Shown here piece by piece: positions 1,896 through 54,294 of a DNA stretch of 64,000 nt. A program made the position numbers and the translations under genes. Under the pieces are notes generated by a model. It had not been told where the DNA came from. It was given only the letters and a program-made list of their open reading frames with translations, and made no database searches. Positions within the stretch are counted from its first letter, which is position 1. The number at the start of each line of letters is the position of its first letter. Origin of the DNA: Nereocystis luetkeana. Its lineage: Eukaryota > Sar > Phaeophyceae > Laminariales > Laminariaceae. The stretch spans positions 5,617,680-5,681,679 of the forward strand of contig JARUPZ010000018.1 in assembly GCA_031213475.1 (NCBI GenBank), written 5' to 3'.

Positions 1896-4680
1896 ACAAT
1901 GGATGTGTTACTCCATCACACTATCGACCATCCTCGCGGAACCGCCTGCCCATACACGAAATTATTTCGCCGTACGAAACCTGAGGTCACCTCGACGCGG
2001 GGTGGGGCAGACGAGCTGCCGCATGTGTTCACGGTATCATACCGTGATATGACTCCTGTGACCATAAAAAGCAAGAGAGTACACATCATAACAATATGCA
2101 AGGTTCCCCTTCGGAATGCGGGAAAAAAAGTGAAATCCCGGGGGCGTCACAAGGCGAAAGGGGGAGTCACAGGTCACAGGTAACATGCTGTTCTTGGCGG
2201 AAACGGGGGCCATGGGCTAGCGTACTGCTCGAAGGAAAGACTAATTTTTTAATAGTAGTCGGCAGGGCCTGAGTTCTACTATTTATGTGGTGGATACTAC
2301 ATACTACCAGGTACACTACTCCCACTGCACGCTGTACCATGGGTTGACTACTATTTATATACCGCCACTGTGCACCACTACCACTACTACGCAAACTTAG
2401 TACCAGGTACAGGTAGAAGCAGCATGCAGCAACACCTGGCTGGTACACTACGACTGACAGTTGTGCTATTAAAATACTACGACTTCTATTTATAACTATA
2501 CAACTACAGCAGTACCTGGTAAGTACTACTGTTGACCAAACGCTCATACAAGATACATACAACCTCATGGTAAACAGAGCGGTCAAATAACCACGCGGTA
2601 CCATGGGTTGCGGCATGACTGCTGTTGTACTGTTACTATACACTACCACCAGTAATACATCAATGCAGGAGAAGTAGAAGCAGCATGAATAAATAGTACA
2701 ACACTACTACAATACCTACTACTACTACTTCTACTCCTTCCTGCTGTAATACTAAAACTTTCATACAACGACGGCGACGTAGCATGCAGCAAGCGGTACG
2801 ATGAGTTGGGGGCATGACTACACTGTTGTTACTCTTAACGTAGACCACTATCACTGCTACGAAGATAGATGTACTGCTGTAGCGAAGAAAGGTAGAAGCA
2901 GCATGCACGCCACAAACTGCCTGGTACTACGTATACTACTACGACTACTATTGACAATGATTTTTTATATAATTACCTGGTATGAAATAGGTCAGTTGTG
3001 AGCTCGACTGATTTAAGTAGTTGATACTCAGTTTTGCAAGCTGCGTGACGTCTGGTCTATATATTATGATAGTGCTTTGTATGAGGTTGAAAGCCCGGTA
3101 ATTACCTGGGTTCTGGCACTGGGATCGTAGTTGTAGTACTTGGAAGGCGTATCTTAGGTGGAAACCCACAGGGGTTTTCCAGAGAGGCACGAGCGTGGTC
3201 TCAGTCTCCGTCGCGCACGAAATGAATCAAACTGTTTTTCTTCCATCTGTAAGCAAACAACAACGTGAGTACCAACGAGTACCGACTTAATGAGCAAGTC
3301 CTGCCCAGGGATACTGCTGATTACCTGGTAGCACTCCCTGCTAGACCACTCAGTCAGCGCTGACTGAGTGGTCCAGCAGGTAGTGCTACATAATAAACAA
3401 AAGATATGTTTTAGAGTTCGTGGAATCTCGTCGACTTAGTAACAGTAGTGATCTCCGGGCCCTCCCCTCGCCTAACGCGACTAGGGTGTTGAGGCACACT
3501 ATCATAATCATTCGTAATTTGTTCTTTTCGAGCGTGCTCCCGCATGCCCTGATCTTAACAAGTGGCGTCGTCGGCACATATACCCCATTTTTTACTGAAT
3601 TTTACAATTTGTATAATATTATAAGCCGTTCGCTTTTGTAAATGTATACGCTACCTGGTGCGTGTTACTTGCGGCCAAGGGCATCTACTACTAGTAACTG
3701 CTATTGGCCAGGTAGAAGCAGCATGCAGGGGTATACGGACTGAGGGAGCCAGTTTATAAATTCGTGGTCATGTACGTGCCCGCTGTGAGGTGTGGGGTGC
3801 ATGTCGAAGGGCTAGGTGAAGCGTGTATGACGCTCTACAGAATCTGATGTGTATTGTTGCTGCTGCCGTATCTACTGCTGCCGCTTCCAAGGTTGATCAA
3901 AACATTATACGGCTGAATGGACCAGATGTGAATTGTAGAACCTTGCCCTGAACGCCGTACGGAGGGTCTTTTGATTATTGCAATGGACTATACCACACAC
4001 ATGACATGTTGCTACACTATTAATACCAGCAATATACACTGGTTGGATGTCGGATACGTATACTATACGATCATCGTGTGTGTCGGATACGTACGAGAAT
4101 ATAGTATATAAGTACCTACGTAACGTTCGTGATTATAGCTATCGATGCACAAATCGGTTCGAGGCGGCAGTGTTTAGTACCAGGGGTACATAGTACCTGG
4201 TACATGACATGCTGTAATTTTCGTACGTAATTGCTTCATGATCAGCGGTATATTTGAAATTAACTGCTTGAAGCGCTGCAGCTGTAATCTGATCGACCAA
4301 GGCATTGAGGAATTACTATCATATGACATATACTACCTGATTCTGTGTGCGGAGGGTATTCTCCTTTTACTACTTACTGTAGGTCGTACCCTCGTTGCAT
4401 ACGAAAATACATTGCAGGCTACCAGGCACATACACAACACCACTACCGCCGTACAGCTGTCCTGGTGGAGTGACACGTGGGCACGTATGGTGTGTGCGAA
4501 CAGAGAGTAGATGGAGCAAAGATTAATCGATTATACTGGTATTGAGCAAGAAAATATATAGGGAGATTGACGATTGATTGCTGTGTCCGAGTATGTTTGT
4601 CCCTCCATGCCTCCCTCCCCTCATAGCGGAGTCATCGTAGGAATGAGATGGCTTCGATAACTATGTAGAATTCATTCTAT
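1896..4680. other. Decayed interior of the copia fossil, no gene recognised
   Basis: AT/TAC-rich sequence with many TACTACT runs and four copies of GGTAGAAGCAGCATG-type words near 2411, 2672, 2892 and 3711. No coding domain is recognisable. Confidence 0.4.
3328..3389. repeat. 62-bp near-perfect palindrome
   Basis: The left arm (31 nt, 3328-3358) begins GTAGCACTCCCTGCT and ends ACTCAGTCAGC. The right arm (3359-3389) is its reverse complement with two mismatches and no spacer. It would extrude as a long cruciform or hairpin. Its left end overlaps an ACCTGGTA octamer at 3324-3331. Confidence 0.9.
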
Positions 4681-4689
4681 GAATGTTAA

Positions 4690-5448: not shown

Positions 5449-5985
5449 GAGGGGTGCAGATAGATATATAAGCTGGTGAGGGGCACAGGGATGTCGGTGC
5501 TGCGTAGAGCACGCTGCTTGTAGATCACGGTGTTCTTATTAACGCTCCTCAAGTGAGTTGAGAGGAAGGGAGGAGAACTCGAGTGAGTAAGGAGGGCATT
5601 GTCGGGGACACAACTCAGCCCAGACGTTTACAAAAACCAACCTGTATGCAGATACAGGTTATCGGGACGTTGTCCCACAGTAGATTCCCAACTATAACAG
5701 AATGTTCCCGACCGGGACGTTGTCATACAGAAGGTTCCCAGACTTACCTGGTACCTGGTATACCCTAATGTTTTGCGGGCGAAGGGGGTGTCTGAACTGC
5801 TCCAAAGAATATACCCACTAAGAGTTACGTATAACCATACAAAAATAACGGTTTAATGTGAAGAGCACACACATACACGTAGGTTCGCCTGCAGATCTAT
5901 TCCTACGTTTCTATATACAACCATATAGTATTCGTCTACAGGTGTGTCTGGTATCTGCAGAGATTTATGCATACGGGTATATATA
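5449..5985 (+). repeat. Right LTR of the copia fossil
   Basis: Direct repeat of 1190-1895 without the nested 186-bp element. At 5746-5760 it carries a double ACCTGGTA inserted where the left copy reads CTTATAACCTAATG. A palindromic ACCAGGTACCTGGTA abuts its right end. Confidence 0.65.
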
Positions 5986-6496
5986 CCAGGTACCTGGTAT
6001 ATGTCAAGCCCTAGCGAATAAGTCATGCCTTAGAGAATGCCTTAGAGCCCTTTCTCAGCAGAGCCCTGCCTTAGACGCTGTTTCGTGCCTTACGTGCCTT
6101 ACTCCCGTAAGGCAACGTACATGCGCTCGAAAAGGGGCAATAAAGCACGTTTTGGGCACCAACATAACGCCGTTATATACGAACTCCCTGAAAACGGAGT
6201 TTGGGGTCACAGAGCATAGGCCGCTCTGCTCAAAGCTCCAAGTCAGCGGTCAGCATCAATTTGTGGTTTAGCAGTGCACGGCCTTCCAGAGTGTGATTTT
6301 CGCCTACAACCCTACTGACGACGAGGTCGTTGAATGTCGACGTTGTCGTTGTGCAAAGTAACAACACAGTGCTTTGAACAAGCAACGGGATCCTCCAAAG
6401 CGCGAAACAGACAGGGTACGTACGTGCTGCCAGGTACAGCGGGTGGTTGGAAAGTGCAGATGTGTGTCATGTACATTATTATTGTCTTTTTTTATG
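5986..6496. other. No gene recognised
   Basis: One 137-codon open frame overlaps here but shows no family motif. Its sequence includes repeated GCCTTA words (6025-6115), so I read it as non-coding. Confidence 0.35.
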
Positions 6497-6888: not shown

Positions 6889-7252
6889 CTATCACGGGAG
6901 ATCATATTTAATAGGACCTATGAGTCACCCCAAGGTAGGGGTTGCTCTTTGTGGGGCATAGGTTTCTGACCAATTGAGTTCCTTAAGTGAGGAACTACCA
7001 GTGAGGATGACATTTTTACTCCTATTATATTCGTTTTAGGTCTAGCGCGTACAAGTGCCGGTCGGGTGGCACGAACGAATTTCTTCCAAGTGTTTTACCG
7101 GGTGATATACTGAGCTCCTAATGTTAGGGGCTCAGGAACTTCTGGTGCACCCCTGCTGTGGGATGGCTCCTACGGTAAACATAAAAAACTATATATTTAA
7201 GTATTTATACAAACAATATTTGGTCCTATTAACTATGGTCCCCTGTAATAGT
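6889..7252. mobile_element. MITE copy C (interrupted) with GGACCATAGTTAATAGGACC ends
   Basis: The left terminal repeat (6889-6922) reads CTATCACGGGAG...AATAGGACC. The right end reads GGTCCTATTAACTATGG to AATAGT near 7252. The right half matches the compact copies at 17145-17263 and 43764-43876. About 240 bp at 6927-7165 is absent from those copies, so it is either an insertion or an older, longer form. The extra block contains GAGCTCCTAATGTTAGGGG-like sequence resembling the fold-back repeat at 34.2-34.8 kb, and a word shared with 24.54 kb. Confidence 0.6.
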
Positions 7253-7790: not shown

Positions 7791-9660
7791 TTGTCATGAA
7801 AGCGTGTGGATGTGTGGATATGGCTGTTTGATTGAACGCAATCGTGGGTGGCATCGGGAGACCTCTGTTGTGCGGCACCTGGTGCTTCTTTGACAGAAGG
7901 GAGTACTCGCAGGAACTACCGCATGCAGCGGTAAGTAAGAAGGGGTGACAAGTAAGCGGTGTTCGTGCTGCCGTTGTCGCTCTACTGGCGTGAAATGCGT
8001 GCGTGTTTATCGTAGGCATGCGTTCGTTCGTGTATGCGGGGAAGCCCCGCTGTCACTTTGGAACAACAAGGTATAGGTATGTGTACTCCAATGTGTGTAT
8101 AACATGTATGTCTTGTGCGGAGTTGAGGACAGACGAATAATGGCTGGAGGGAGTCCCCAAGGCGGAGGAGACCAATCATGGCGCAGGGTGGTGGTATTAG
8201 TCGTAATGTTCGACTGGTGGAAGATCTGCAGTCGGCTGTACGTCTATTAATTATCAGATGGATGCGCGTGTGGCCATCGTGGCTGAATACACGGCTATGG
8301 GGAGGGATCAACGTGTAGTATTGTCGGCGTCGCCGTGCAGGTCCTGACGTAGAGGAGTACTTGGAAGGACCAAGAAGTGTTGCACTGCCGTAGAGACCTG
8401 CAGTAAGACAGACGGGGTAGCAACCTGCTGAAGGACAGACGGGGTAGCAAAGGATGCATCAAAGATCGACTCTGTTTTCGAAACGATAAGCAGCGAAAAC
8501 AAAAGTGGGCATGAAAACTCAACTCCATTTTCAATATGTTGAGTGGGCATCACGGTAAACTCTACAAATACAAGCATAAACTCGTTTGGCGTGGACGGTC
8601 GCTGTGAGGGCGTTTCGGTATAATGGAATGATGCGTGTTTCAGGGCAGGGCCGCCCTTCCAGAACGTCAGAGATTCCGGAATAACGCATGCTTATGACGG
8701 ACTGATCCGTGTTTTTCTATACGTCGCACTTAAGCCCTGTGAATTTACCGCCGACAGCCCTAACGAGCTTGTCGACTGCATCAGCTGCTTTCGTTGACTC
8801 TCCCATGATGATGCTGATGCTGATGCTGTAGTCGGGGCTTCATTGTTATTTGTTTTTGAAACAAATCCTCCCCAATGGAAAAAGTGAGATATTTTCTTGC
8901 ACTTCTTCGAAGAACGTGACAAACTCAGTAAGACTTTGAAGCGTGGTGCCAGTTGATGCGTAGATCGAGGCTCATAACCTGATGGAATGATGCGTGTCGA
9001 GGCTCTGTCTTCTATGAGAATAGATGCAGAGGCGGCACCGAAATGTCTGTGAAGATCACTTGTGATGAAGAAAATAAATTGTTTGGAAAGGCGCTCATGT
9101 GGCCAAATGCGGAAATGAAAGAGAGTGATGGTGGGCGATGCCATCACCTGATCACGAGACAATGCCCATGCTACGGGCAGGTTTATTCTACAGCAGCCCG
9201 TCAAGGTTCCCTGAACCGGTCCTAGCAATGTCCCTGCCACGGTCTATGTAGCGTACTCGTAACGTTCTATGCAATGTTACCTTATACTGATGGCGGTAAG
9301 CTAGCTACCCTGCATTACGATCAGCATGATAGAGGTAAGTTGAATGCAGTGCGTCGGCAAGAAAGAACAAACTCAAGTCTCGCTGCATATCGTATTTCTC
9401 CGCATCTATCATAAGATACTTAATACCAGGTATGCTCGTGTGAAGTGACTGCACATCAACATAGATATGGATCTCAACGTCCATATTTCAATACAGTAGA
9501 CTTTCGCAAGATTGTAAACCATGATTCGCGAGAGCAAGTAGAGGGACTTTATCATTCTTTTGGGAATAGTTTTAACAGGACTGTCAGCTTTCTGGCCCAT
9601 TAAACTTTGATCCCAGTTGCTCTGGCGTGAAGAGACCGGCTAAGACGGCATACGACGCGG
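7791..9660. other. No gene recognised
   Basis: The longest open frame is 182 codons on the minus strand at 8692-9240. It starts inside a run of other frames, has no recognisable domain and no supporting splice or context signal. A small tandem duplication ACAGACGGGGTAGCA is present near 8411 and 8435. TACCAGGT occurs at 9424. Confidence 0.35.
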
Positions 9661-11310: not shown

Positions 11311-11616
11311 TGTTTAGACATGATAACAAACAGGCGTTGACTACACTAACACGTTCCCATGATATTATGCTGCTGCTCTTTACGTACCAGGTATGATTTT
11401 TGAATATGTTTGGCTCATAGAAGTCTACTGCAACTATTTTTTATGATACCAGTACTGCCTCTACAACTGCTACCACTTACGTTTGCCGCCGCCATTGCCG
11501 CTGTTGTTGTTCCTTCCCTCCCATTCCTATTTACCTTGCATGCTTACTTCCCGTACAGCACACGCCAACGCCCATTTTTATAACTAACTGTCTTAAGGAC
11601 GTCGTCTCGGGCTGCT

Positions 11617-12522: not shown

Positions 12523-13779
12523 ATCTTCGTACTTTGAGAGCCTGTTATCGTGTCTATCGTGGTCTTCCGGTAGAGCACCATACACAGTCGATCTGCCTTT
12601 GGTCTGCGCCTGGGGTCTTAATTTAGAGGTGCTCGCGCGCGTTTCGTTGCGGCGTGCGCCTGCGTTTATACTATTTCAATACTTTCAGTAAACATCCGTT
12701 TTGCTTGTACTTGCACGTCTGTCAGCGGGTGCTTTGAGTTCAAGCGTGGGGAGCGGACTGGTTTATTTTTTTTAGGGCGGGTTTTCCTTCGCCCAAGAAG
12801 AGTGTCGGGTGTTGCATCGCCTTCATCGAGCTAGGTCTGCTTGATTTTCCTGCATCCTCTTTGGGTGCTGTGGGCCTTCGCTTTAGCGAGGATCCTGTTT
12901 TTTATCTATCTTGGGAGTTTGCCCCGGTGTTGCTTCCGTTGTTAGTAGTGACATCCGCGTTCGCGGGGAAATTTCTACCAGTACTCCCGTCGCTTTGCGT
13001 TTTTTTAGTTTCACGCCGGCCCTAGGCCCACTGCTACGGTTTGTTAAAGACGTTTTTCCAAGAGGAATTCTGTCGTAGTTGGTGTTGGCGTTCGCCAAAG
13101 GTTTCAGTTAGTTGAAGAACGGTTAGGTGACGCAGGACGTGTGTCCACTGATGCTCCGGTTCGTTGAAGAAGTGCTTACTGTCGTATTAATAGTTGCATA
13201 CCACGCTCAGGTCGCCTTCCTGTCTCATAACAACTGTGCTACATAAATACTACCTGGTACCTGTTTTTTCGGTCATTAGAACTAAACTGCTCTCTTGCGT
13301 CACCCTTATCTGCATGTTTCACTCCTATTTTCCTTATCCAAATACATATTTGGTTGTTAACAGGTACATTTGAGCTATTATTGCCCCAATTGCAGCACAT
13401 ACATATAACTACAGTTGGTGGAATAGCTCAAACTTGTCCATTGATAACCGAGTGCCTGGTACGTATTTCGACAAGAGTCTTCTTACACGCTACGCTCATG
13501 CCACTCCGAAGGGAGAACAGGTATAGACATATAGATATCCTGGCCTTTTCGGCTAAAAATCAGGTACGATGTCAATATCGCCTATAACAGGGGTCCTGCG
13601 TGTGATTTGGACTTGTTTTCAGTGAGTATCTGATCTTGGTCCGAAAGTGGCCAGGTATATCTGATTCTGGCTAAAACCGTTATATCTACATCCATACGCG
13701 ACATCTCGGTGCCTTGCGGCGAGCGCAAGCACTGACCAGCGGAGACAACGAGGCAGCGTTGAGGAACTCCGGTGGGCGG
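12523..13779. other. Probable 3' UTR and spacer, no gene recognised
   Basis: T-rich and G/C-mixed sequence after the stop at 12522. ACCTGGTA occurs at 13252. No motif-bearing frame was seen. Confidence 0.35.
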
Positions 13780-14509: not shown

Positions 14510-16325
14510 CTTCCCAAAAGATCCTCACTAAATCCTATGCACACGTTCCTACTGATTCCTACAAGTAGATAAAATAAACCGTGCGAAATAATCGTACGTT
14601 GATTCGTACGCATGAAACTCGAAGAGACTCCAGCCATCGAACCATCGCCACACACGCATGATCGCGAACGTCAGAGACCGGCAAACGCGCTCCCTATAGT
14701 GTGGAAAGACATGCTGATCTTGGAGGTTCACTGCTGCTGCTGTGTTGACGCGTCTGGTCGCGCGATCCGTGAGAGGGGCGCCTCACACGCGTACGGATCC
14801 GCCTCACACACAATTCTTCCTCAGTAAAACTCGTTCACCTCGTCGCACGAGATAAGCCGAGCGTATGGCTCCCTAAATATATGTGGACCCAGCATTCAAT
14901 ACCAAAAGCTACGTACGCCGTACGTGGCGCTGATCCAGCCTAGCTCTAAAGTCAAGATAAACCAGTCGTTACTACACCTTCAATCTGTCTTGACGATCCT
15001 GCCTCGCTGCGTCCCCTCGATCGCGAGTCAACTGGTACGGGAGGATTGGTCCCACGTACACATTTTAGACTATAAGGGTACAACAACTCGTGTTGATCTG
15101 ATTGGTCAACTTAACCCGTACGTACAAAACGCATATTTTCTCGTACCTTGATGATCGATGATACCCAGCATTTGATTTGAAACCGTTAAAAAGGCGACGA
15201 GACTCTCAGCCGACGCGCACGCTGCGCAGCTCTAACCAATGGTACTTAGCGGTGTGTACAGAACGAACTACAAGTACGTACCATCCACACAGGTGGCCGG
15301 GACTCCCCCCTTGCATAATGCGGGGGCAAAAAGAGGGTAGGTTTGTCCGTAGACGAGGTAACGGCCTCCGCAAACGAAGTAACGGACAAAGCAGGGTTTA
15401 TTGGTAGAGAGAATGTGGCATGTCCGTATCGGGAACTGGGATAGAGCAAGTTTGGTTGGAAAGGAAGGCCTCGCACGCAGTCCTTCCAAGCAAAGCACCG
15501 AGCGTAGGTCAGCATCCCCACGCCGGGCACGAGCAAGCACGAGGTGCTGTGACGAGCACGGGCAGACGTGAGGTAATCGCTGGTAAGTCGATCCAAGCCA
15601 GGAATTAGTGCCTTATTTTTCCTTTCCTCCCGTCTCTACTCCGGCCCGGCTGGGACCACAACTGCTGAGGGCGGGGGCGAGCTGACGCGACTTTGGTGAT
15701 CGGGGGGGATTTGCTGCGAGGACTGGATTCAGCGAGTTCCAAAAAAAAAACACACACACACGGTATGTCATGTGTAGTGATTGTCGACTGACGATAAAGT
15801 ACTATCTAACGATAGGCGAAGAAACGATGAGTGGGAGCGGCGACCGCTTCCCAGTAACGGGAGGCGGCCCGTTTAGAGAAGAAAGAACCCGTACGGGTTG
15901 GGGCACCCGCTCACACGAGAGCACGAGCATAGACGTGGCTGTACGGGTGGGAAGCAGCGCGACGCGGGTCTTTGTCTCGAGGTGCATACATGCACATCGA
16001 AAAGACGCTATGATACATTCGTGAAGGCGGCAGAGGGAGGACGCGTGGTGGAGACAATGGGCGCGCCAGTGTACGAGAGAGCAAAAAAAAAAAACGAAAA
16101 AAAACGCATACTACCTGGTACCTGGCACGTATTGATCTATAGGCATCTATGCGCACATCCCACAACATACACCCCAGACCACCAGATCACCCAGGCAGGT
16201 AGGTTTGGGGAGGTCCCAGGACGCTGGTGGTGCTGCTGTGTACAGTCAGTCCCCTTTTTAACGCGACCGAGAAGGCAAGCACAAGTTCTGGACATGATAC
16301 TCATGGAAACATATACTGTTGGTAG
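14510..16325. other. No gene recognised
   Basis: Several open frames of 60-145 codons overlap in opposing strands but none shows a domain, splice-bounded exon or consistent codon bias. ACCTGGTA occurs at 16113 beside an A-rich tract. Confidence 0.35.
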
Positions 16326-16329
16326 TATA

Positions 16330-18370
16330 ATTTGAGTCGGTGGAGACAGCAGTACTGCTGTATGCGATGGAAACATGCCGTCGCAAGACCGACACGGTGT
16401 TGTTTGCTGTGGAGGCGCAGCCTCGTTACTAGCTCTGGGCATGATACCCATGGAAACATGCCGGAGTATAGGCCGCTATAATAATAATGAGACTAATAAT
16501 AATGATAATAGAAAATAACACGCAGCACAGCAGCACAGACAGGTCGGGGTTTTCATAAACGTGATAACACAGGAATGCGATGGGCACTGTATAATCAGCC
16601 CGGGGTACAAGAAAAGGGACGAAAAGGGGAGCAAATTGTTTCGTATACGCGTGGACGGGGGTTTCCATAAACGTGATAAAACAGGAATGCGAGGGGCACT
16701 GTATAATCAGCCCCGGGGTACAAGGAAAGGGACGAAAACGAGACGAAATGCTACATGTATGTACCAAATATGATGTGGCTGTAGACTAAATTGCGTCGGT
16801 GCACAGTGGAGTTGGTACCGCTACTGTGGGCGGCAATTAAGAAAAAAACAAAAACATGTTGACGCACGACCGACACGGGGTTGCTTGCTGTGTGTGGAGA
16901 CACAGTCCGGCTGCAAGCTCTGGGCCTGATACTCTTGGAAATATGACGAAGTATCGGCCGCTATAATAATTTGAGTTGGTGCGCTGTGGAGACAGTTCTG
17001 CTGTGTGCGATGAAAACATATCGACGCACGACCGACACAATGTTGCTTGCTGTGGAGACACAGTCTAGTTACAAGCCCTGGGGCTGAGACCCATGGAAAC
17101 ATGCAAGGTACTGGCCGCTCTAATAATAATAATTATTCATATCATATTACGGGGGACCATAGTTAATAGGACCTATGGTGTACATAAAAACCTACCAGGT
17201 ATATATTTAACCTTCTTTTACTAACAATATTTGGTCCTATTAACTATGGTCCCCCGTAATAGTGATTTGAGTCGGCGTGCTGTGGAGGCAGTACTGCTGT
17301 GTGCGATGAAAACATATCGACGCACGACCGACACGGTGTTGCTTGCTGTGGAGACACAGTCTGGTTACAAACTCTGGGGCTGAGACCCATGGACTTGGGA
17401 ATATGACGAAATATCGGCCGCTAAAATAATTTGAGTTGGTGCGCTGTGGAGACAGTTCCGCTGTGTGCGATGAAAACATATCGACGCACGACCGACACGG
17501 CGTTGCTTGCTGTGGAGACGCAGTCTGGTTACAAGCTCTGGGGCTGAGACCCAGGGAAACAGGCAAGGTACTGGCCGCTCTAATAATTATTATTATTATT
17601 GATATCATCATAGTAATTTGAGTCGGCGTGCTGTGGAGACAGTACTGCTGTGTGCGATGAAAACATGTTGACGCACGACCGACACGGGGTTGCTTACTGC
17701 TGTGGAGACACAGTCTTGTTACAAGCGCTGGGGCTGATACTCTTGGAAACATGACGAAGTATTGGCCGCTATAATATAGTTTGGGTCGGTGCGCGGTGGA
17801 GACAGTACTGCTGTGTGCGATGCAAACATATCGACGCACGACCGACCCGGTGTTGTTTGCAGTGGAAGCACAGTTTGTTTTTACAATCGCTGGGCATCAT
17901 ACTCATGGAAACATGCCGGAGTATGGACTGCTATAGTAATAATTTGAGTCGGAGCGCTGTGGAGACAGAACTGCCGTGTGCGATGATGGAAACATGTGGA
18001 CGCACGACCGACACGGGGTTGTTGGCTGTGGAGACACAGTCCTGGTACAAGTTCTTGGCCTGAAACTCATGAAAACATGCAAGGTATTGGCCGCTATAAA
18101 AATAATAATTTAAGTCGGTGCGCTGTGGAGAAAAAAAACTGCTGCTGTGCGATCAAAACATGTCGATGCACGACCGACACGGTGTTGTTGGCTGTGGAGA
18201 CACAGTCCTGTTACAAATTCTTGGCCTGAGACTCGTGGAAACATGGAAGGTATTGACCGCTGGGGAGGCAGTACTGCTGTGTGCGATTACAACATATCGA
18301 CGCACGACCGACACGGTGTTGGCCGGCTGTGGCGACAGCAAGGGGCCGGCTCGCTGTGGAGACAGGGAGG
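16330..18370 (+). repeat. Satellite array of about 165-bp monomers
   Basis: At least ten monomers are anchored by GACGCACGACCGACACGG at about 16381, 16859, 17018, 17317, 17483, 17668, 17830, 17998, 18162 and 18298. Typical spacing is 159-185 bp. Each holds TTGCTTGCTGTGGAGACACAG, a CTGGGCCTGATACTC-like block, GGCCGCTATAATAATTTGAG and TCGGTGCGCTGTGGAGACAG. The first interval is longer and contains decayed sequence. A MITE is nested between monomers 3 and 4. The open frames that run through the array (Cys/His-rich) repeat with the unit and are not taken as genes. Confidence 0.85.
17145..17263. mobile_element. MITE copy A, nested in the satellite
   Basis: About 119 bp with terminal inverted repeats: TATTACGGGGGACCATAG and TTAATAGGACC on the left, complementary GGTCCTATTAA and CTATGGTCCCCCGTAATA on the right. 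It lies in an (AAT)-rich stretch between satellite monomers. It carries a TACCAGG insertion (octamer at 17193-17200) that copy B at 43764-43876 lacks. No coding capacity; superfamily not assigned because the target duplication is unclear. Confidence 0.85.
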
Positions 18371-18559: not shown

Positions 18560-20960
<2,401 letters not shown>

Positions 20961-35599: not shown

Positions 35600-37140
35600 A
35601 TGGGCGTGTGCATGTATGAGTGGCCGTTGTCGTGTGTAAGGGGTGCGCGTGTCTTCTCAACGGCGACGGTCGCACGTCTTCGTGGTTAGCCGGTGCGGGT
35701 GGCTTGGACTCACGGTATCACCAGTGAAACTGGAGGCACCCCTCCTACCAAGCCCTCGTGAAAAGGGACTTTGAAATATTTTCTCCGACAAGATGTTTGC
35801 TGTTCTTCTAATGGACCCTTTAGCCTCATAAGAAGGCATGAGCCCTACTGTAAGTACAGGCTGGCTGGTGTTGCTGTGCGTTCCCCTATTCTGAACCCAG
35901 CAGTTTCGAGGACCCGCCGGGCAACGTCAAACGGGTGCCTCCTTCCTAACTCCGAGAAGAAACAATGGGTCAGTGTGCATTTCGACCGAGAATCACAACG
36001 TAGAGGGCGGGGCTGGATGTGTTGGCAATCAATAGCGGTGGACGCGGTAGTTGCGGCGGTGTCCGTTGATTGCGGGCTGTTTCCTGGGCCAACAAGCCAG
36101 AGCCCACGAAATGCTAGGCTGTATCGTCTCCCACACCGCCCCGATGGCGCGTGCAAACTCTCGCATCGTCTGAGCTCGCGACCGCTCCGTCCCCTTCATA
36201 ATGCCGTGTGAGGGGCTCGGCTTGCCCTGCCGTGCCGTGCGCCGATCGCTCTGTCTCTTGCGCCGAACGGTTCGGGCTCGCGATGCCTTCGAGATAGTGG
36301 GAAAAATAGGCAGAGCGAGTCGGCTCGTAATAGCTTGTCCAGTAGTGTGGGCCGATGTTTCTCCATCGCTGGAGAAATAATTGGTCCGCTCTGATCCCAC
36401 GGTCAGGAGGTTAGCCCGCGATTGTAACGAGGATAACAATCGAAAGTGGATGCGTACACTGCTGTAACTTTTAACCCCTTGTACATGCACCTTATTGAAG
36501 CAGTTTTATGCTGGTACAAAGTAACTCATCAAAAATAAAATACGTTTGTATCATACGTACATCCCAGGTACCAGGTACACATCTGTAGTTCTCGAGCTAA
36601 ATTACGCGAGGATGGGCGCAACACGATCCTCAACATAGCGTATACGTGGTACTTGCTAGTGTTGGCGCCTTCCAACAATCCTAGACACCAAGGTCATTGC
36701 AACGCCACCCTTTCAGCGGCATTTACCCCTGATCTCCAGGACGGCCGAAACTGCATGGGACTTACAGCAGTAGTACGACGAACCATCCCAGGATCCGTCG
36801 TCATGTAGCCGGTCAATGCCGGAGATAGTAAATCCAGAACAGCACTCACTACGGTACTACTCTAGTGTTGTTTCAAGCACGTAAGCAGTCAAACCTCCTG
36901 CTTTTTTATAGATTTGGCTTTTCTTTTCCCGTGAATATCTCCGCCCTTCTTTTCTATCTCCCGCCTAATCGAAACTCAGATCAACCATTGGGTCACATAG
37001 CAGGTTCTCCTCCCCCCTGCCCAGTACGGCTCGCGCCTTTAGATATTTGGCCTTTGTCTTCCCTCGTCGACTCGCGTCGAACTGCGCCTGCCCACGCTAC
37101 GCGCTCTCACTAATAGACTCGTTTTTTTTATTTGCAAATA
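35600..37140. other. No gene recognised
   Basis: Frames at 35771-36211 (+) and 36029-36490 (-) overlap. The minus one has 'MREFARAIGAVWETIQPSIS', faintly like the thumb region of YR-type reverse transcriptases, too weak to annotate. TACCAGGT occurs at 36569. Confidence 0.3.
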
Positions 37141-37239: not shown

Positions 37240-39842
37240 CCCGATAATCGGCAGAAATAAGTACCAGCAGGTATAACCACCAAGTGTAAAACAACCGCCA
37301 CCGAGGACAGCGACAATTCAAGCAACACCCAAGCAACCTCCACGCCGCCACCACTGGCATCAAAGGCGACGGCAATAGGGACAAGAAAACGCCACGGTGT
37401 GTTTTCCGAGATATGGTGGCGCGGAAAGCTGGCGCTGCCTGCCGCGCGCTGCCGCCATTTTCTGCAGAGAAGACGGGGTTCACGCTTGCGGAGGCATCGG
37501 CTTCGAAGGGGATAGCGCCGAAGGGCTGATTGCTGAATAAGTCTTGATGTATACGCTAGACGTGGCACCCACAGGATGAAACAATGTTATTACTTGTTTT
37601 GCTCGTTGTCCGAATAATAAAGGAGGCCAAGTGGGGCATTTTGCTGTGCCTAGGGGCGGCATTGCCTGCCATCCACTCGCCCAAGACATGAGTCGCGTAC
37701 AAGATTCGTATAGAAAGTTAAGATGCCGTACGCCGTGCCCTGTTCCAGAATCGATCAACGACTAATTCAACGCGTTGCGCAAGATGAAACCGTTGGGCTT
37801 CTGTTTCAGAACGTAGAAGAAGATGCATACCTGTAGCGAGTTCGCAGCTCCACGAAATAAGCGCACAACCGATGGCTCATCCGTAGGCGATGCCTCAAAA
37901 AGGCTCTATAAATACCAGGTGATGATTACCTGTCAGTTGTAACTGACAGTCGAACTACTGCGACTAATGCCTTGAAGTGTATGGGCTAATTACTCGTTAA
38001 TTTTCATGAACCGATATAGAGTTACCAACGCCACACAGCTCGTGCTCTTGTTTTATGTAAGAAGCCCAACATCAATATGCTGGGCGTGCGTGAGACAAGG
38101 AGCACGGTGTTTAAAACGGAATGGCTTGTTTTGCGACTGTAGATATTTCTTGATCACGCTCCGTCACTCAGAAATCGCAGGTACGTTTTGTCCACACATA
38201 CGGTTTGTGGCATGAGCAAATAATCTAACAAAGAAGGCTGCTCGATCGAATGTGATGGAGCAACCCCCATTAAAATGTTGGTATATAATATTATGCTGTA
38301 TCAGTATTTCTTAAATACAAACATCACCAGCCACCATCAACACATTGCGATCGACAATTGCTATCGATATGTTCACACTCACAAAGTGCCAGGTGCTGCG
38401 GTAGGCAAGGCAAACTATTTGGGTATTTAGAGAGCAGTGGGCGGTCGGCACTATCGAATGGATTACGTATGATTTACTTGCCCCCTGGACAATAGTATAC
38501 CAGGTATGAAATAGAAAAATAGCCGTTTCAATCGCCGAAAGAGTGTTTGTTTGTCGTTGGCCATTGGCTACCACAACAGACTGGCAACGTTGTCTGTCGA
38601 TAGCTATTGTCGGGGAGCTTAGTGTCGGGAATGTGCACGTTAAGCCATTGCCGCCACAGTGCGGTGGCAAGGTTCCCCTTCTAACTATACTAACCTGAAC
38701 AATAGATGACGGGGAAGCAACCGCAATAAACAGTGTCTGGACGATAGACCAGTAAGTTTTGACTCGATAGACACAACCGCCAACAATGTTATGTACCCAT
38801 CGGTAGACATCGCCACGCACAATAGACGATAGGGGTATGTTTCCACGGGCTATTATTGCATTACCCCTTCGGGGCCCCGATGTATCGACCCAACCAGTGA
38901 TAGTCTTTGTGTTTATCAGCCGCCTATGAGCACAAGCAGTGTCAGCGCCAACAGTACGGGTAGGAACGTGTTGCTGCAGGGCCGCACGACTCCTACAGTT
39001 TCTCGGACACCAACCGGTATCATCCCTCATACCAGTATCACGCAGTATTTATAGCCGTTGCTGCGATCGTCAATTTTTGTCTTCGTTTTTTGTTCTGTCA
39101 GGCCCCAACAGGGTTATTTCATACCTGGTACTCGTTTTTGATCCCGTGAAGTGATGCGCATCGATAGTCGTTGCTGCCGACCGCCAATTTTCATAAGAGA
39201 GTAGAAGAGTGGGTCAAATCTAATCGAGCAGGAGGGCAAAGAAGGGCATACGCTGGTGCTACGGAATTGGTGAAGTCTGGTTTCTGCCCGTTCTCCCAAA
39301 AGCCCGTAGCTCCACAACAAATGTATCGCTTGATAGCTTGAAGGAGGAAAAAAGACAGCTTGAAGCAGTGAAAAAATCGGAGCACTGCCGCCAATGACGT
39401 GGGGGTAGAACGTTGACGAGGAGCAGGGTAAGCGTGAGTTTGCCAAGGGAGGAAGGCGCAAGTAGAAGCCCGCAAGAAGGGAAAGAGAGGGCATATGTTG
39501 GTTCAGAGTGATTGAAGAGGGACTAATACTGCGGTATTAGAATGCATGATTTTCAAGTCGGAATGGAATATGTACGATACATTGTCGAAGGGCATAACTC
39601 CTACTATTATTGGCTTTCACAAAATTTTGCGGCCGGCAAATCAAGGACCTTCGATGGACATGGCTCACACTATATTGCAGGGGGCAGTGTGTTTACATCA
39701 ATTCGCAGCAGCGCCAGTTTATTGTCGGGGCAACGGACTATTATTGCGGCCGAGTTTCAAGCTATGTTGTCGCTGACATCATCTGTCGACAGACACCTTC
39801 AACAGTCTGTTAATTGTGCCCCACAATATATACCTGGTACCA
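37240..39842. other. No gene recognised; degenerate TCGATAG/CTATTGTC words
   Basis: From 38330 to 39740 short words such as TCGATAGCTATTGTC, ACAATAGACGATAGG and GCGATCGTCAATTTT recur, recalling the hAT interior at 29.8-31.5 kb. A 239-codon minus frame (38311-39030) is built from these words and shows no domain. A short hairpin TGTCAGTTGTAACTGACA lies near 37931. TACCWGGTA sites lie at 37913, 38498, 39123 and 39832. Confidence 0.4.
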
Positions 39843-39940
39843 GGTATATGTTGTTGTTGTTGTTGTTGTTCTCACATTAACTCTCTGACGAAGGAGTCCG
39901 TGGTCACACAAAGGTGCTGGAGCCCTAGGAAGATCCGAAA
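39843..39940 (+). mobile_element. GTT-headed short repeat, copy G2
   Basis: (GTT)n, then CTCACATTAACTC, then GAGTCCGTGGTCACA and GCTGGAGCCC, collinear with copy G1 (1621-1806). It begins directly after a TACCTGGTACCAGGTA palindrome at 39831-39846. Confidence 0.6.
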
Positions 39941-42576: not shown

Positions 42577-43972
42577 GTGACTGCCAAACGAAAATGGCGT
42601 GTTGTGGAGATTCAGCTGCTATGAACTAAACCTTCCATATGTATGGGTGTGTGCTCTACAAGTATTTATAGTCAGTACCTCCGACTGCTCCCGCTCAGCT
42701 AGTGCTGCTGTGGTGAGTGTGCTTGCGATGCGTTGGAGAGCGGTTTCTGCCCACCACCACTGCGGCCCACGACATGCCCGTTGCTTCAGGGGAGGGGGGG
42801 GTGCGTGAGCACTATTGACGAGTCAGTACATCGCGTTGCTGGCTCCAGCGACCTCGCAAGCGGCTTCGTTCCAGCTCTTCGCCCTGCAGTAACTACACTC
42901 TACCCTGCCCTATGATACACCACAGCAGTGTACCAGACTCCAGGTACCTGGTAGCCTCCCTTCTCCGCTCGTTTAATGCCTGACAGGGCAGGGCGGGGCA
43001 AGCGCGCGGGGGGGGGGGGGGGGGGTACATCGAAATTGGGCACTGTTGTTGGGTATATAGATGCCCGTGAACGAACTTTACTTACAGCAGCAATTGCAGC
43101 GCTGCTATGCCGGTTTGTGGTCATACTTGGAAGTATCATAGTGTGCCAACCTCCAGGTCCACACCAGGACAGGATAACGGCTGCTGTATGTGGATGGTCC
43201 TACTTCACTTCAGCAACAAACAGCAGTAAGTTGTCTCCCGGTAATAGGCCGCGCGTCGCCTGTTGCGTACTTCTGTTCCTGCTGCTGCTCTTCGAGGTAG
43301 GGGGGAGGGGGGGGGGGGGGCGGGGGGGGGGCTTCCAGCTACAGCTCGATTCGCAGCCTTTCGTCCCTACCGCCACTGCCACAACGAACTATTATTAGTA
43401 TTAATAGTAGCTACCCATGGTGTTTGCAAGCGTGCTGCCGATATCGCCAGCAGGTCAGATTCTCCGTCATGTTCTATCCTATTGTAGCAGCCGGCGGGAG
43501 TAGAATTGTAGCTTGATGGGTACGAGTACACCATTGATACTCCGTACCAGGTACATATATATCATAGACGTGACACGTCGTGCACGTTTTGTGGCTGTTT
43601 TCGTTTGCGGTTGCTGTTGCTGCTGTCGGTGGTGTTGGCATTGTTTTCCGGAAAAATATGTGCAGCTCACAATGCTCCGTATGGACCGGTGCGTATTTAT
43701 GTCCCCCCTGTTATTTTTCGTAGGACACATGCTGCCGAAAAGTTGACCAAGAAGCGTTACTACACTATTACGGGGGGGCATAGTTAATAGGACCTATGGT
43801 ATACACAAAAACGTATATATTTAACCAATATTACTTACAATATTTGGTCCTATTAACTATGGTCCCCCGTAATAGTAGATTGAAGACGTCCGATCGGTCG
43901 CACCCAACCGTAGCTCCAAGGCACAACCGCAACCCAAAGCAAAGACAGCACCATAGCATCAGCTCTAGCAAC

Positions 43973-44016: not shown

Positions 44017-47000
44017 GCGTTAATACTTGCACGGATTTCTCGGAGGTGGCGACGAGCGATCCCGGAAATCCCACTCGAGACCTTCCCGCCGAGATGCGTA
44101 TTATGTCCGTAAAATTGTTCTCTGGATGTTGGTCACAGTCAACAGACAGGTGAAGGGAAGGGAAGGGCTTGTTTCGCGCCATCGAGACCATCCCTCCGCG
44201 TGTCCCAACGCGTTGCATGCGGCCAAATCCGACGATATGAATACTGCGACCCTGCCAGCATGGAATATGAGACTGGAACATAGACCGTGTCGTGTAATAT
44301 ACCTGTACGTATATACCAGGTGCGAGATGTCTATCAACAGCTATCGTATTAATATCGAGCTGACCCGATATCGCTGAAACAGCAACCCTATATACGTAAC
44401 AAAAAAAAACATACAGCTGCTGCAACTATTACTATTTGCGCACCAACGCTGATTTATCAAACGCTGTTGTATGTCCCCCCACGCTCATGTTGCCTTATGA
44501 CGTTACAGGGATGCGCTGCAAGGGACCGTGGAGGCCCAGGAGAGGGACATCGACGAGCTCAAAAAGAGCGTCTACGAGCTTTCCTACATGGTTTCCATGC
44601 AGGTGCGCTACCCACTCTCCCACCCGCATACGGTGCCACCTGCTTTGCGTAGGAGTATCGTCTATGCTTGTAGTATACGCACGCGTGTTTTTGTTGAAGT
44701 TGTCTGACCGGCTCTACTCTGGTGTTGAACGACGCTCGAGCGCTTGTGGTACGGCAGTACGTGTGGCGCAGGTACGGGTACAGATACAGAGAACAGCAGA
44801 GGTACAGAGTACAACAGTGCACGGCACAGTTACAGGGTGGTAGATAGCCCAGGAGTAAGATGCGATACAGCAGCACTTGCCTGCAATCAACCTGTCTCCA
44901 TACAATATTCGTGTTAATAGTTCGCACTAGGTACATTCATACCTGGTATGTACGATCAGCAGTGGCAGAGCAGAGAGAACTCTTTATTGATTACAGATAT
45001 ATCTGGTGTATATTTTCCCGGCTGGAAACACAAAATACTAGTAGTTCCAGTATGTCACTTGAGCTAGCGTTAGATCATTGTTGATATCATGTCCAGTCCA
45101 CCAGTCTACCGATGTAGAGCTATGAGGTTAGTGCAAAACGTCAATTTCCGATGTATAAGTATCCATAGTACTGTGCTTGGATCGGTCCGCTTCATTATCG
45201 CTGCGAAGCTGCACCTTGACTAATAGCATAGCCAGCCTCCCTCCCTCCCTCCCTTCTCCCTCCATTCTTCCTTTCATATGACTCCAAGTGTGTTCCTTCC
45301 AATTATGCGACCGCCCAACTCCCCCCCCCCCCCGGCCCCTAAATCAAACGCCTCACGTTGATTCGTTAACCGCAAATGCCAATAAAGGGGAGCGCGGGCT
45401 TGGCTCCGGTTTCAGCGAGCCTCGGCCCTGAGGGAGCGAGCCCAGGGATAGCACATGGCGGTGTCGGTGAGGAAGGGTGGTAGGGATGGTATAGTGCCCC
45501 CAAGAGAACGGGCGAGGAAAACGGGGCTTACGCCTTCGAATGGTATACCATGGTACTTTATTCTCCACTACACCGCTGTTTGCCTGCTCGCTTTTTTATG
45601 GTTTTTTTATGTTTTCCTTATTTGTTTTTTTTAGTTTCCCTTCGAAACTGTTGGAGCCTGCCCTGTGACCACGGACTAGATTTGTGGCAATTATTCATAG
45701 GTATACCGGCATGTGCGACCAACGACAACAAAAGCCACAAAAAGAACGACGACAATAGCAGCAACAACAGCAACAACAACAACAAGAGCAGCTGCTGTAG
45801 CGCTTCCTTGTGTTCGCGTAGGGCATGCTCATGGTGGGCGTTTTTTTCGGGGAGGGGGGGGGGGGGGACGCCTGCTGTATATGGGTACCCGTGCATGCTG
45901 TTTCGAGTTCGGTGTGGTGGTCGTCGATGGATCCGCCGCCTCCTATATATCGCCATTACATTACTTTCACATATGTAGTAGCCATAAACGTCGCCATCAG
46001 ATGTTGCGATCATTACATGTGTGAAATCGTCAACGTTGTGTACCGGTTTCTAAATAGTGTCGTTGGCGCCCTACTCTATATACTGTACCTGATATGATGT
46101 TATTGTTCCGTAGCACCCACATTGCTGTATGTTTCGTAAGTCGTTTTTTAATCGTTTTTTTTCTTGTGTTTTCACGGGTGTCATACTGGAATAGTCCATC
46201 GTAGAGCGCTACGCTTACGGGATTACCGTTATCACCAATCGGCAACCCGGGGCACACTCGGATCGGAGACAACAAGGTGGGCCTACAGTAGTACCCTCCC
46301 CGGCCCACCCTGGCACCTCAAGGCCCTGCCCATCACCCCCCCACACCTTATACGACTACAGCCATGCATGGCAATGAGTGCATCCCCCCCACACACACGC
46401 ACCACCGAGTTGATCGTATCACGTAGTGTTCAAGGCAAGGCACCCAAGAGGCAGTTACATAGTACTCCCTCCCATTGCTGTCTCTGGAAATGCCTACACC
46501 GGAAATTTAAGTAACTCGATAAAGCTGTCATCCACATGCAAGTCCGCCAGAAAGCAAGCGGTTCTTAGTAGGATGCAGCTCACCATTCATGCGACTCGCT
46601 GGACACCTCACGGCGCTTCGCGCTTGGTGCAAGCAATGTCTGCCTGGTCGGTGAAAACCCGATATGCTCCGTCCCGGCATTGTAGGGATGCGAGGGTCTA
46701 TGGTCATACGACTACGGCCATGCATGAGATCGAGTACATCTCTCCTATCGAGTACACCCCCCCACACACACCACCACCACCACCACCTGCGCAGGTCTGC
46801 GACCGCCGAGCCGAGCGGTCTTCGACCCCCGCGTGGGGCCCACCGCGCAGCAGCTTGACTCTTTGAGCCTAATCGGCGATGCGGGCATGGGGGTCGGGGG
46901 CAGCAGCGGCGTCGCGGCGGACCGCGTGCTTGTCGCAGAGGCTAAGCTGGTGAGAACCAGATATATTGCTAGAGGGGGGGCAGGGGAAGGGGGGTGTACT

Positions 47001-50036: not shown

Positions 50037-50098
<62 letters not shown>

Positions 50099-53000: not shown

Positions 53001-54294
53001 TTGTTCCACCTGCCGGGAAGATAAGAGATATTCTGCAGATAGATCGTCTGCCTGGTACCAGGTACACCCTATCCTTCCGTTATGTGGCATGTTGTCCAGG
53101 GTCCGTGTAAGTACAGATCCACAACCCGGCAAACGCGTCCTGCCGTAGATCGTGTAGATTACGCAGCTCCCCCCCGGGAACATGAGCTTTGATATTTAGA
53201 TCATACAGCTCGGGAATGTAACTAGCTGTCCCTGAAGGTGGGAATCGAATTTATCTGTCCAAGGTGAGGGTGGGTTGTTCTGAGACCGGTTGATTCGTGT
53301 TGTTGTGTTTTACAGTAGAGGGGACCGCTGCGGCAATTAACATTCGCGTAAGTGCGTTGGTTTTTTGTCGGTTTGTCCTGAACCCGATGTTTTGGTTTTT
53401 ACGGTAGTGTTTCAGAAGAGACCTCTCTGCAAGGGTACGAGTGGTAAAGAGTGGGTGCGGTTGTGCTTCGTTTCGCCAGCACGTGTTGTTTTGTTTTGGG
53501 CGTATGTTTTGTTTTTTGTTCGTTTTAGCTTTGTCAGCGCTTGGTGGGTTGTGAGGGAGTCTCGTCGGCGTGCAGGCGGCATCTCTGGCAGGGGGTCGGG
53601 TCGGGTCGGGTCGGGTCGGGTCGGATCGGGTTCAGAAGGGTCTCGGCTGAGGGAAAGGGCGCTCGAGTGCCCAGGTCGACTTGTTTTGGTTTTTTTTTCG
53701 GGGGGGGGGGGTCGTTTTTCGGGCCATCTTAGTCCACTCGGGCGCACAGCTGCTACCGTAGGCGCGGGACAACAAGGCTGTACAGACGTGCTCGGCGCTG
53801 TTTTCCGACGGCGCGGCATGAGCACCGCGGTTCGGTCCGACCCGGTACCCTGCGTCATTGGTTCGCGTTCGGCGCTCTAGCTGTTGTACCGTCGGCGCAG
53901 TACCTCCCCTCTGCAAATTGATAAAGCAGCTCGCTCTCGTGTCGAACGGCTGTTGAAGAAGGGTCTCGAAACCCTATTTCTATCGTTCTTTTCTGGAAAA
54001 CTCCCCACCTCGCTCACTCTTTCTCTTCCCCCTTCCCCCTCCGCTCCCCCCGCCTCTTCCGTGCCACTTCTCCCCTCCCCCTCCTACCCACTACGTACCG
54101 CTTTGTTGCACGCGGCTGGTTGTGGCGCCTTCGTGCTCCTCTCCCAGGGGGAGCAGATGCAGACGCTTCGAGGGCATCGAAACAGGGTCTACTCGGCCGA
54201 CTTCCACCCCACAGAACCGAAGCTCGTTTCCTGCAGCGCGGATCGCACGGTTCGAATCTGGGAGCCCAATCGGAAGCGCCACTCCAGAAAATGA
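42485..54294 (+). CDS. Coiled-coil and seven-blade WD40 protein (gene span, at least 9 exons)
   Basis: Joining splice-consistent exons gives a Ser-rich start, an N-terminal coiled coil and a seven-blade beta-propeller ending at TGA 54294. Blade signatures include 'LVASAGFDRTLRLWEG', 'SLISASFDQTVAKWDTETG', 'VVSADASGNILTWDTRTG', 'LVLATGSADGSIHVFD' and 'LVSCSADRTVRIW'. Blade order and wording resemble the U5 snRNP 40K protein (SNRNP40: ASAGFD, SASTDKTVAVWD, GSADR), so a spliceosomal or scaffold role in the nucleus is a reasonable guess. The coiled coil and long Gly-rich insertions between blades differ from that family, so orthology is unproven. The start is uncertain: ATG 42485 lies inside an open exon that follows an acceptor at 42410-42411. 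One small exon between 44602 and 46795 is probably missing because phases disagree there. Confidence 0.75.
43764..43876. mobile_element. MITE copy B
   Basis: About 113 bp, the cleanest compact copy: ACTATTACGGGGG, TAGTTAATAGGACC, TATATATTTAACC, then GGTCCTATTAACTATGG and CCCCCGTAATAGT. It lacks the TACCAGG insertion seen in copy A. Confidence 0.85.
43974..44008. repeat. (CAG)n microsatellite in a WD40 intron
   Basis: About twelve uninterrupted CAG units followed by CAACAACAG. Confidence 0.95.
44509..44602 (+). CDS. WD40 gene, coiled-coil exon
   Basis: Acceptor GTTACAG and donor CAG|GTGCGC bound it. Its first base completes the Arg codon split at 42576, an independent phase check. The product 'DALQGTVEAQERDIDELKKS' followed by 'VYELSYMVSMQ' has heptad spacing of hydrophobic residues. 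Confidence 0.75.
45638..45800 (-). mobile_element. GTT-headed short repeat, copy G3
   Basis: On the minus strand: (GTT/GCT)n head, then CTAGTCCGTGGTCACAGGGC and AGGCTCCAACAGTTTC, matching G1 and G2 in order. Confidence 0.55.
46340..46390 (+). mobile_element. R1 repeat, tail fragment
   Basis: CTTATACGACTACAGCCATG, then GCAATGAGTGCATCCCCCC: only the 3' end of R1 and its C-rich tail. Confidence 0.5.
46436..46765 (+). mobile_element. R1 repeat copy in a WD40 intron
   Basis: Carries the R1 middle and 3' blocks (GCTGTCTCTGGAAATGCC, GCAGCTCACCATTCATGCG, CGGCGCTTCGCGCTTGGTGC, GAGGGTCTATGGTCATACGA). Its C-rich tail runs directly into the acceptor tract of the exon at 46795. Confidence 0.8.
46795..46949 (+). 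CDS. WD40 gene, linker exon
   Basis: Acceptor CTGCGCAG, donor CTG|GTGAGA. The reading 'LRPPSRAVFDPRVGPTAQQL' then 'DSLSLIGDAGMGVGG' and 'AADRVLVAEAKL' is a Gly/Ser-rich linker between coiled coil and propeller. The 3' phase matches the next exon; the 5' phase does not match 44602, implying a missed exon. Confidence 0.65.
46983..47155 (-). mobile_element. R1 repeat, inverted copy in a WD40 intron
   Basis: Reverse complement of the R1 3' block: CATGCATGGCCGTAGTCGTA, TGACCGTAGACCCTCGCATC, CTACAATGCCGGGACGG. Interrupted by G-rich sequence near 47035. Confidence 0.65.
47608..47822 (+). mobile_element. R1 repeat copy in a WD40 intron
   Basis: GTCCGCCTCACAAGCGGTTC, CTTCATGCGACTCCTCGCC, CGGCGCTTCGCGCTTTGTGC and the GTACACCACC tail. 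Its C-rich extension (47820-47905) forms the acceptor tract of the exon at 47921. Confidence 0.75.
47921..48127 (+). CDS. WD40 gene, blades 1-2 exon
   Basis: Acceptor ACGTGCAG, donor CAG|GTGGGT, exactly 69 codons. It reads 'SGHTAAVYVAKFSPRDSLVA' through 'RTLRLWEG', then 'LEGHRQLISDLCWAPDGRSL' and 'ISASFDQ'. The GH and WD-type strand ends are clear. Confidence 0.85.
49386..49945 (+). mobile_element. R1 repeat, long copy in a WD40 intron
   Basis: Aligns with 27211-27712 from AGGTTGGGTTGGCGTCGGTT through GCGGTCGGTCACAGCTGGCG and CACTCCGCACAAGGGGAA to GTCATACGACTACGGCCATG and a C-rich tail. Slightly longer, with extra TTTTCGTTTTCG sequence near 49482. Confidence 0.8.
50048..50148. repeat. (ATG)n microsatellite in a WD40 intron
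   Basis: About 100 bp of GATGATGAT with rare GAGG and GGT variants; gives a false poly-Met frame. Confidence 0.95.
50198..50521 (+). CDS. WD40 gene, blades 2-4 exon
   Basis: Acceptor TCTCTAG, donor AAG|GTAATC, exactly 108 codons. Completes blade 2 ('TVAKWDTETGQRVGSM'), then a Gly/Ser-rich insertion of over 20 residues, then 'KVAYAGSTSKRIYTVDTRDS' and the start of blade 4 ('FVNSLHVYSDGSK'). Confidence 0.85.
50822..50862 (+). mobile_element. R1 repeat, tail fragment before an acceptor
   Basis: ACGACCATGTATGACATGAG followed by a C-rich run, like the R1 3' terminus, about 110 bp upstream of the acceptor at 50970. Short, so tentative. Confidence 0.35.
50971..51078 (+). CDS. WD40 gene, blade 4-5 exon
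   Basis: Acceptor GCGGCAG, donor CAA|GTGAGC, 36 codons. Reads 'VVSADASGNILTWDTRTGGI' then 'VDSYSLEDPIHISHIQ', directly continuing blade 4. Confidence 0.85.
51079..51722 (+). other. Intron of the WD40 gene
   Basis: C-rich in its second half with CTG-type triplets near 51290-51350. No other exon is evident. Confidence 0.6.
51723..52027 (+). CDS. WD40 gene, blade 5 and linker exon
   Basis: Reads 'EGLLLAANCFDNTLRVFQRK', then an Ala/Gly/Pro-rich linker, then 'HALRGHTVKNWPI' with the Arg codon split at CG|GTAAGA. An acceptor at GACGAG (51722) gives the matching phase 0. The stronger-looking CGGCAG at 51712 would shift the frame, so the 5' edge is uncertain by about ten bases. Confidence 0.75.
52028..52678 (+). 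other. Intron of the WD40 gene
   Basis: Donor GTAAGA, acceptor CACAAAAG. No other exon or repeat family recognised. Confidence 0.6.
52679..52982 (+). CDS. WD40 gene, blade 6 exon with poly-Gly insert
   Basis: Its first base completes the split Arg, giving 'NWPIRCAFFRG' across the junction. A run of more than 20 Gly codons (about 52755-52870) follows, then 'NDWQHSLVLATGSADGSIHV' and 'FDLSKGQ' before CAG|GTTAGT. The poly-Gly insert sits in a loop between strands of blade 6. Confidence 0.8.
52983..54147 (+). other. Last intron of the WD40 gene
   Basis: 1.17 kb. Contains TACCAGGT (53056), a GGGTC pentamer repeat near 53595-53630 and a G tract near 53701. No exon recognised. Confidence 0.65.
54148..54294 (+). 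CDS. WD40 gene, terminal exon (blade 7)
   Basis: Acceptor CTCTCCCAG. 48 codons plus TGA. 'QTLRGHRNRVYSADFHPTEP' then 'KLVSCSADRTVRIWEPNRKR' closes the propeller, followed by a short basic tail. Confidence 0.9.
   Translation, partial: GEQMQTLRGHRNRVYSADFHPTEPKLVSCSADRTVRIWEPNRKRHSRK

Follow-up and report, generated by a model that had tools for sequence, protein, structure and literature searches.

What places a single nine-letter word in a brown-algal genome far more often than chance would allow? The question is raised by 64,000 nucleotides of Nereocystis luetkeana DNA (assembly GCA_031213475.1, contig JARUPZ010000018.1, positions 5,617,680 to 5,681,679 of the forward strand), the whole of which is referred to here as the window, and by the near-palindrome TACCWGGTA that recurs along it. 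In the families compared, this word is a TA that has received a 7-bp insertion duplicating the TA (TA to TA-CCWGG-TA). Here we argue, at a probability of about 0.83, that it is the heritable excision scar of a TA-targeting cut-and-paste DNA transposon, one scar being left per visit.

A sequence-only reading of the window had counted 30 copies of the octamer ACCTGGTA, and all 30 are present, against 2.06 expected from shuffles (maximum over 100 shuffles, 6); the positions it gave hold, except that two are shifted by one (2975 instead of 2974, and 3323 instead of 3324). The full nonamer TACCWGGTA, to which 27 of the 30 octamers extend, occurs 27 times against 0.48 expected, the octamers at 353, 37913 and 44314 being those that do not extend. 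The doubled copies that had been noticed by eye were also recovered, at 5745/5752, 5984/5991 and 39831/39838, with a spacing of exactly 7 bp in all three, as was the solitary site beyond 45 kb, a region with fewer TAs (710 vs 2,670) in which the deficit, once this is allowed for, has p = 0.03. The same reading had proposed ranking octamers against a Markov background and counting the motif genome-wide. In the window, under a second-order background, the octamer is outranked only by simple repeats of AAT, poly-C, CAG and ATC types, and in the host genome (465 Mb, 1,987 contigs) TACCWGGTA occurs 182,395 times, or once per 2.55 kb, vs 1,744 for a reversed-pattern control, an excess of about 105-fold. 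Twenty 10-kb stretches were sampled at chosen positions across 18 contigs, and 17 of them contain the motif at least once; a 264-kb sample holds 89 nonamers vs 2.1 expected, and among the TA-flanked palindromes with two-base arms that were tested TACCWGGTA ranks first.

The way in which these copies arose is visible where related sequences differ. When the sampled sequence was compared with itself, all against all, the partner of a motif site often had a bare TA. For 12 motif runs with clean flanks, the partner is shorter by 7 or 14 (within 1) in eight, three of which are one position of one repeat family, and the remaining four have complex or equal-length partners; at 139 control TA-N5-TA sites, equal length is the commonest state (109), and any partner shorter by 7 was seen at five. 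A 301-base query around the double scar TACCTGGTACCTGGTA at 5745-5760 gave 41 matches, and at every one of the 36 non-self places that span the site the match falls short of the query's own length, by 6-21 bases overall and by 13-17 bases in 30 of them. When 16 of these places were fetched and aligned together with the window copy at 1347, leaving aside L054, which stops at the site and so carries no information on it, 14 bp proved to be missing in all 16 informative copies, with the TA kept in 12, TG in three, and a ragged junction in L053.

A second family, resembling a miniature inverted-repeat transposable element (MITE), presents the scar in several states. Searching with positions 17130-17290 returned 79 matches, about half of which are the same places matched again on the reverse strand, from about 40 places scored out of 1,641 first-look candidates; the alignment comprises 23 copies, 20 fetched and three from the window. 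A bare TA is found in six of them (L062, L063, L064, L069 and the window copies at 7169 and 43793), and the scar, intact or mutated, in the other 17. One copy (L075) has a double scar at another TA (GTTAA-TA-GGACC), an insertion that happened independently, and in L076 the TA of the other copies is replaced by TACCGGTA. The members of this family in the window (7169-7254, 17130-17290 and 43793-43878) have inverted ends near TATTACGGGGGACCATAGTTAATAGGACC and are apparently TA-inserted themselves.

The sites in the window, none of which is assigned a strand, are as follows.

353..360, octamer TACCAGGT alone, decayed scar or chance
1213..1493, duplicate of 5466-5746 (94%), with a bare TA at the place of the 5745-5760 double scar
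2305..2313, putative scar TACCAGGTA, nonamer match
2401..2409, putative scar TACCAGGTA, nonamer match
2513..2521, putative scar TACCTGGTA, nonamer match
2974..2982, putative scar TACCTGGTA, nonamer match
3322..3330, putative scar TACCTGGTA, nonamer match
4178..4188, putative 7-nt variant scar TACCAGGGGTA
4194..4202, putative scar TACCTGGTA, nonamer match
5745..5760, putative double scar TACCTGGTACCTGGTA, 14 bp missing in 16/16 informative related copies
5984..5999, putative double scar TACCAGGTACCTGGTA, nonamer match
9424..9432, putative scar TACCAGGTA, nonamer match
11385..11393, putative scar TACCAGGTA, nonamer match
13251..13259, putative scar TACCTGGTA, then an apparent decayed second unit
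16112..16120, putative scar TACCTGGTA, then TACCTGGCA, a putative decayed second unit
17193..17201, putative scar TACCAGGTA within the MITE-like repeat, bare TA in 6/23 aligned family copies
23543..23551, putative scar TACCAGGTA, nonamer match
26633..26641, putative scar TACCTGGTA, nonamer match
30326..30334, putative scar TACCTGGTA, nonamer match
36569..36577, putative scar TACCAGGTA, adjoins a decayed unit
37913..37920, octamer TACCAGGT alone, decayed scar or chance
38498..38506, putative scar TACCAGGTA, nonamer match
39122..39130, putative scar TACCTGGTA, nonamer match
39831..39846, putative double scar TACCTGGTACCAGGTA, nonamer match
42945..42953, putative scar TACCTGGTA, adjoins a decayed unit
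43545..43553, putative scar TACCAGGTA, nonamer match
44314..44321, octamer TACCAGGT alone, decayed scar or chance
44940..44948, putative scar TACCTGGTA, nonamer match
53056..53064, putative scar TACCAGGTA, adjoins a decayed unit

What kind of agent inserts at these TAs is suggested by their flanks. Among 181 half-sites, which take in both sides of every site and are therefore symmetrical by construction, W stands at -7 in 150 (0.83 vs a background of 0.52, p = 6e-18), R at -6 in 0.73 vs 0.48, and R at -1 in 0.79 vs 0.61. This preference fades past -8 and is confined to about 8 bp per side. The motif thus does not form the middle of some longer repeat, and its surroundings resemble what an integrating enzyme would prefer at its target. 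The classical 3-nt footprint of Tc1/mariner type is TACWGTA, and this word, considered as a possible parallel scar, is also enriched in 282 kb of sampled sequence (90 vs 40.7 under a third-order Markov model, 2.2-fold), but W at -7 is little favoured there (0.59).

Variants in length point to what the element's ends may have been. Between the two TAs, 5 nt is the main length, a 6-nt form is frequent, and 4- and 7-nt forms are present in the sample. Genome-wide, the 6-nt form TACCAGGGTA occurs 11,422 times (control 409) vs 1,578 for TACCTGGGTA (control 362), from which it follows that the element's end was probably 5'-CCAGGG; the simplest reading is that both ends of a lost element started in this way. 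A second unit without a following TA occurs in 1,299 places, with CCAGGGT in 55 and CCTGGGT in three of the 100 listed, and seven of eight such loci that were read have CCAGGGTA. The 7-nt form TACCAGGGGTA also exists, four of five fetched CCAGGGG stretches running on into TA, with centres that are about equally A and T in this small sample (3 and 2).

These properties can be accommodated by a simple cycle. The element would enter at a TA and duplicate it; on leaving, the transposase would cut inside the element, so that 5 nt of each end (5'-CCAGG...) stay behind as 3' overhangs. Two such overhangs could anneal CC with GG around a central A:A mismatch, whose repair would give CCAGG or CCTGG, and the centre would be W because the mismatch is resolved either way. 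Shifted joining would yield CCGG, CCAGGG or CCAGGGG, the 6-nt product preserving the A of one end, unlike the 5-nt product with its ambiguous centre. An old scar would offer two TAs in a favoured context, such that repeat visits could build arrays with a 7-bp period, and all scars would afterwards erode neutrally. Intact elements would be few or absent, either because the element was a low-copy jumper that did not multiply or because it is now extinct; the argument, and it is an argument only, is that a low-copy, non-multiplying element could accumulate such numbers of scars over millions of generations.

Which other processes could add 7 bp at a TA? Templated insertion, in which breaks at TA are repaired with CCWGGTA units supplied by a telomerase-like enzyme or some other polymerase, is unlikely, although it would account for the gain of a fixed 7-nt unit at TA and fits with the fact that an intact element was not seen in the sequence examined. 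Left unexplained by it are the self-complementarity, the central W and the mostly-A CCAGGG, all of which would follow from annealed transposon ends, and the preference in the TA flanks indicates a transposase-like enzyme.

Selection or biased mutation might instead maintain a functional motif, such as a transcription-factor site, a methylation or restriction-type site, or a dispersed palindrome like HIP1, and the self-complementary CCWGG core and genome-wide dispersal are what such a motif would show. This explanation is nevertheless quite unlikely: it is strongly weakened by the empty sites, since related copies show entry by 7- or 14-bp TA-duplicating insertion rather than by substitution, and the length variants CCGG and CCAGGG occur. 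Among copies with one mismatch, moreover, there are 46 transitions and 16 transversions more than expected, vs 104 perfect copies (central base left out), a 3:1 transition excess that looks neutral. The sequence-only reading had guessed at a binding, methylation or end-joining sequence. End-joining was close, as the evidence points to ligated transposon overhangs; binding and methylation are disfavoured because they do not predict 7-bp TA-duplicating insertions, 14-bp double insertions, or length variants such as CCGG and CCAGGG.

Expansion of a tandem repeat, by slippage of the 7-bp unit TACCWGG, has about as little in its favour as a full account. The unit spacing of 7 bp and the arrays of three or more units (1,689 triples genome-wide vs 0 in the control), a count far above that from independent insertion, speak for it, and slippage may contribute to arrays. 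Yet 79 of 84 runs in the 264-kb sample are single units, slippage has no way of starting from a bare TA, and A and T centres are mixed in 35 of the 50 plus-strand triple rows listed (three rows overlap another), which are therefore not simple copies of one unit. An artefact of assembly or library, raised as an alternative in the sequence-only reading, is very unlikely because the genome holds 182,395 copies and the scars are common to, and decay within, an old repeat family.

If the motif is an excision scar, its decay gives a rough age. Modelled as a single burst, the scars would be roughly 0.07 substitutions per site old; under constant activity, excision would have started roughly 0.2 substitutions per site ago and comprised about 365,000 events. 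The sequence behind these rough figures is about 0.29 Mb long, and some 18 kb of it (L001-L004, L007 and L008) was chosen for containing the motif.

Several observations weigh against the excision scar. An intact element with TA-CCAGGG ends was not found in the sequence examined (less than 0.1% of the genome), and 20 stretches in which the motif has a non-TA continuation, five of them CCAGGGG, have no terminal sequence in common. The Tc1/mariner transposase domain DDE_3 has no match at E up to 0.001 in a six-frame, exon-by-exon search in which 30 candidates were scored, Transposase_1 (PF01359) lying outside that search. Three DDE_1 loci that were read (L040, L041 and L099) have no TA-CCAGGG inverted ends within the stretches examined. 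The preference for W at -7 is not seen at the sampled CCSGG, CCGG and CCAGGG sites (13, 25 and 11 half-sites), R at -6 being retained in CCGG (0.72) and CCAGGG (0.82), with few sites sampled. TACCTGGGTA is itself about fourfold above its control. The 1,689 triples are about 80 times the number that simple independence would give (about 20), and the four classes of A/T centres differ in size (15, 22, 6 and 7; p = 0.004), so that re-insertion must be strongly favoured or another process contributes. For the transposon Passer, parts of PMC9976928 describe duplication of the TA target and footprints of 0-4 bp; the 5-nt scar is longer than these, which places it outside the 0-4 nt looked for in a Tc1/mariner or pogo footprint. 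Excision outcomes in rice, as far as passages of PMC4423477 describe them, were varied (8 of 94 perfect, the others with deletions, filler or both), whereas here one 5-nt product dominates, with the 6-nt form at 11,422.

The search for a source took in other signals. Pairs of inverted ends TACCWGG...CCWGGTA were scored or listed, whether complete scars were included or not, and none in the sequence examined is convincing; one 29-bp TACCTGG...CCAGGTA pair lies in the overlapping loci L007 and L008. Repeat boundaries at TACCWGG amount to three isolated cases in 2,260 alignments. DDE_1, which marks the pogo group, has 28 matches in the genome, for which no link to the scars emerged. One of them (L040) combines DDE_1 with a Tc5-type DNA-binding domain slightly under its cut-off and contains nonamers at 553, 2209 and 2666, the last falling within the second stop-to-stop frame.

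The number and uniformity of the scars is the surprising aspect. Tentatively, a very low-copy transposon that did not multiply could have jumped several hundred thousand times, its excision being coupled to unusually uniform, annealing-guided end-joining, possibly a dedicated or domesticated excision system resembling the removal of internal eliminated sequences in ciliates but leaving a heritable 5-nt scar, with scars outnumbering elements by orders of magnitude. If the excision-scar interpretation is right, about 182,000 readable scars would allow jump rate, target choice and repair outcome to be measured over evolutionary time without the element being seen, and a word that is among the most over-represented in a genome can have its origin in repair and not in regulation.

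The window and assembly have other features. Two 5S-rRNA-like matches lie 1.3 kb apart on the minus strand (33511-33629 and 34910-35031), 5-7 bits over the Rfam gathering score, and are either 5S genes or 5S-derived short interspersed nuclear elements. Words of the CTGTGGAGACA type, some of the most over-represented decamers of the window, abound in tandem arrays at 17610-18261 and 20331-20658, whose units are 166 bp and 122 bp long; microsatellites include a perfect (AAT)53 at 19687-19844 and an imperfect (TGA)33 at 50048-50145. The rubisco large subunit has 131 matches with mostly identical scores (contigs C62 to C1228 among others), implying many redundant plastid contigs in the assembly; a plastid locus (L098) encodes a 488-aa rubisco large-subunit protein followed by a 140-aa frame, which we take to be the small subunit. 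The solved structures closest to this large subunit are 8bdb, 7yk5, 5mz2, 5n9z, 6ftl and 5oya, which rank above 4f0h and 1bwv; several of the former are diatom enzymes and the latter two are red-algal, a pattern suggestive of a photosynthetic stramenopile, and a brown alga is likely from the size of the genome and the style of its simple repeats.

How does this compare with known systems? Genome-wide excision scars of this kind were not found in the open-licence literature, as searched by titles and abstract openings; such scars are usually known in small numbers from strain comparisons, as with the 94 in rice, in which, as in our proposal, scars arise from double-strand break repair (both from passages of PMC4423477). 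Transposons of the pogo, Passer and Tigger type have TA target duplication in common with the scars described here, and DDE_1 genes are present in this genome; the footprint is longer here, and the DDE_1 loci read are without TA-CCAGGG inverted ends. The internal eliminated sequences of ciliates have TA at their boundaries and are eliminated in very large numbers, and in both respects resemble the proposed elements. Their removal is precise and somatic, whereas here a CCWGG scar remains and passes through a repeat family. Excision of Mos1, like Sleeping Beauty a member of the Tc1/mariner superfamily, leaves a footprint of terminal nucleotides with alternative A or T at its centre. For Sleeping Beauty, passages of PMC3952818 give a footprint of CAG or CTG. 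Both differ from the present case in having 3 nt between the TAs vs 5 here, where there are also about 182,000 copies, no element found and no DDE_3 detected. The likeness extends to TA target duplication, a scar built from the element's terminal nucleotides, and A-or-T alternatives at the centre, and by this analogy CCAGG/CCTGG would be the 5-nt counterpart of the Sleeping Beauty CAG/CTG scar.
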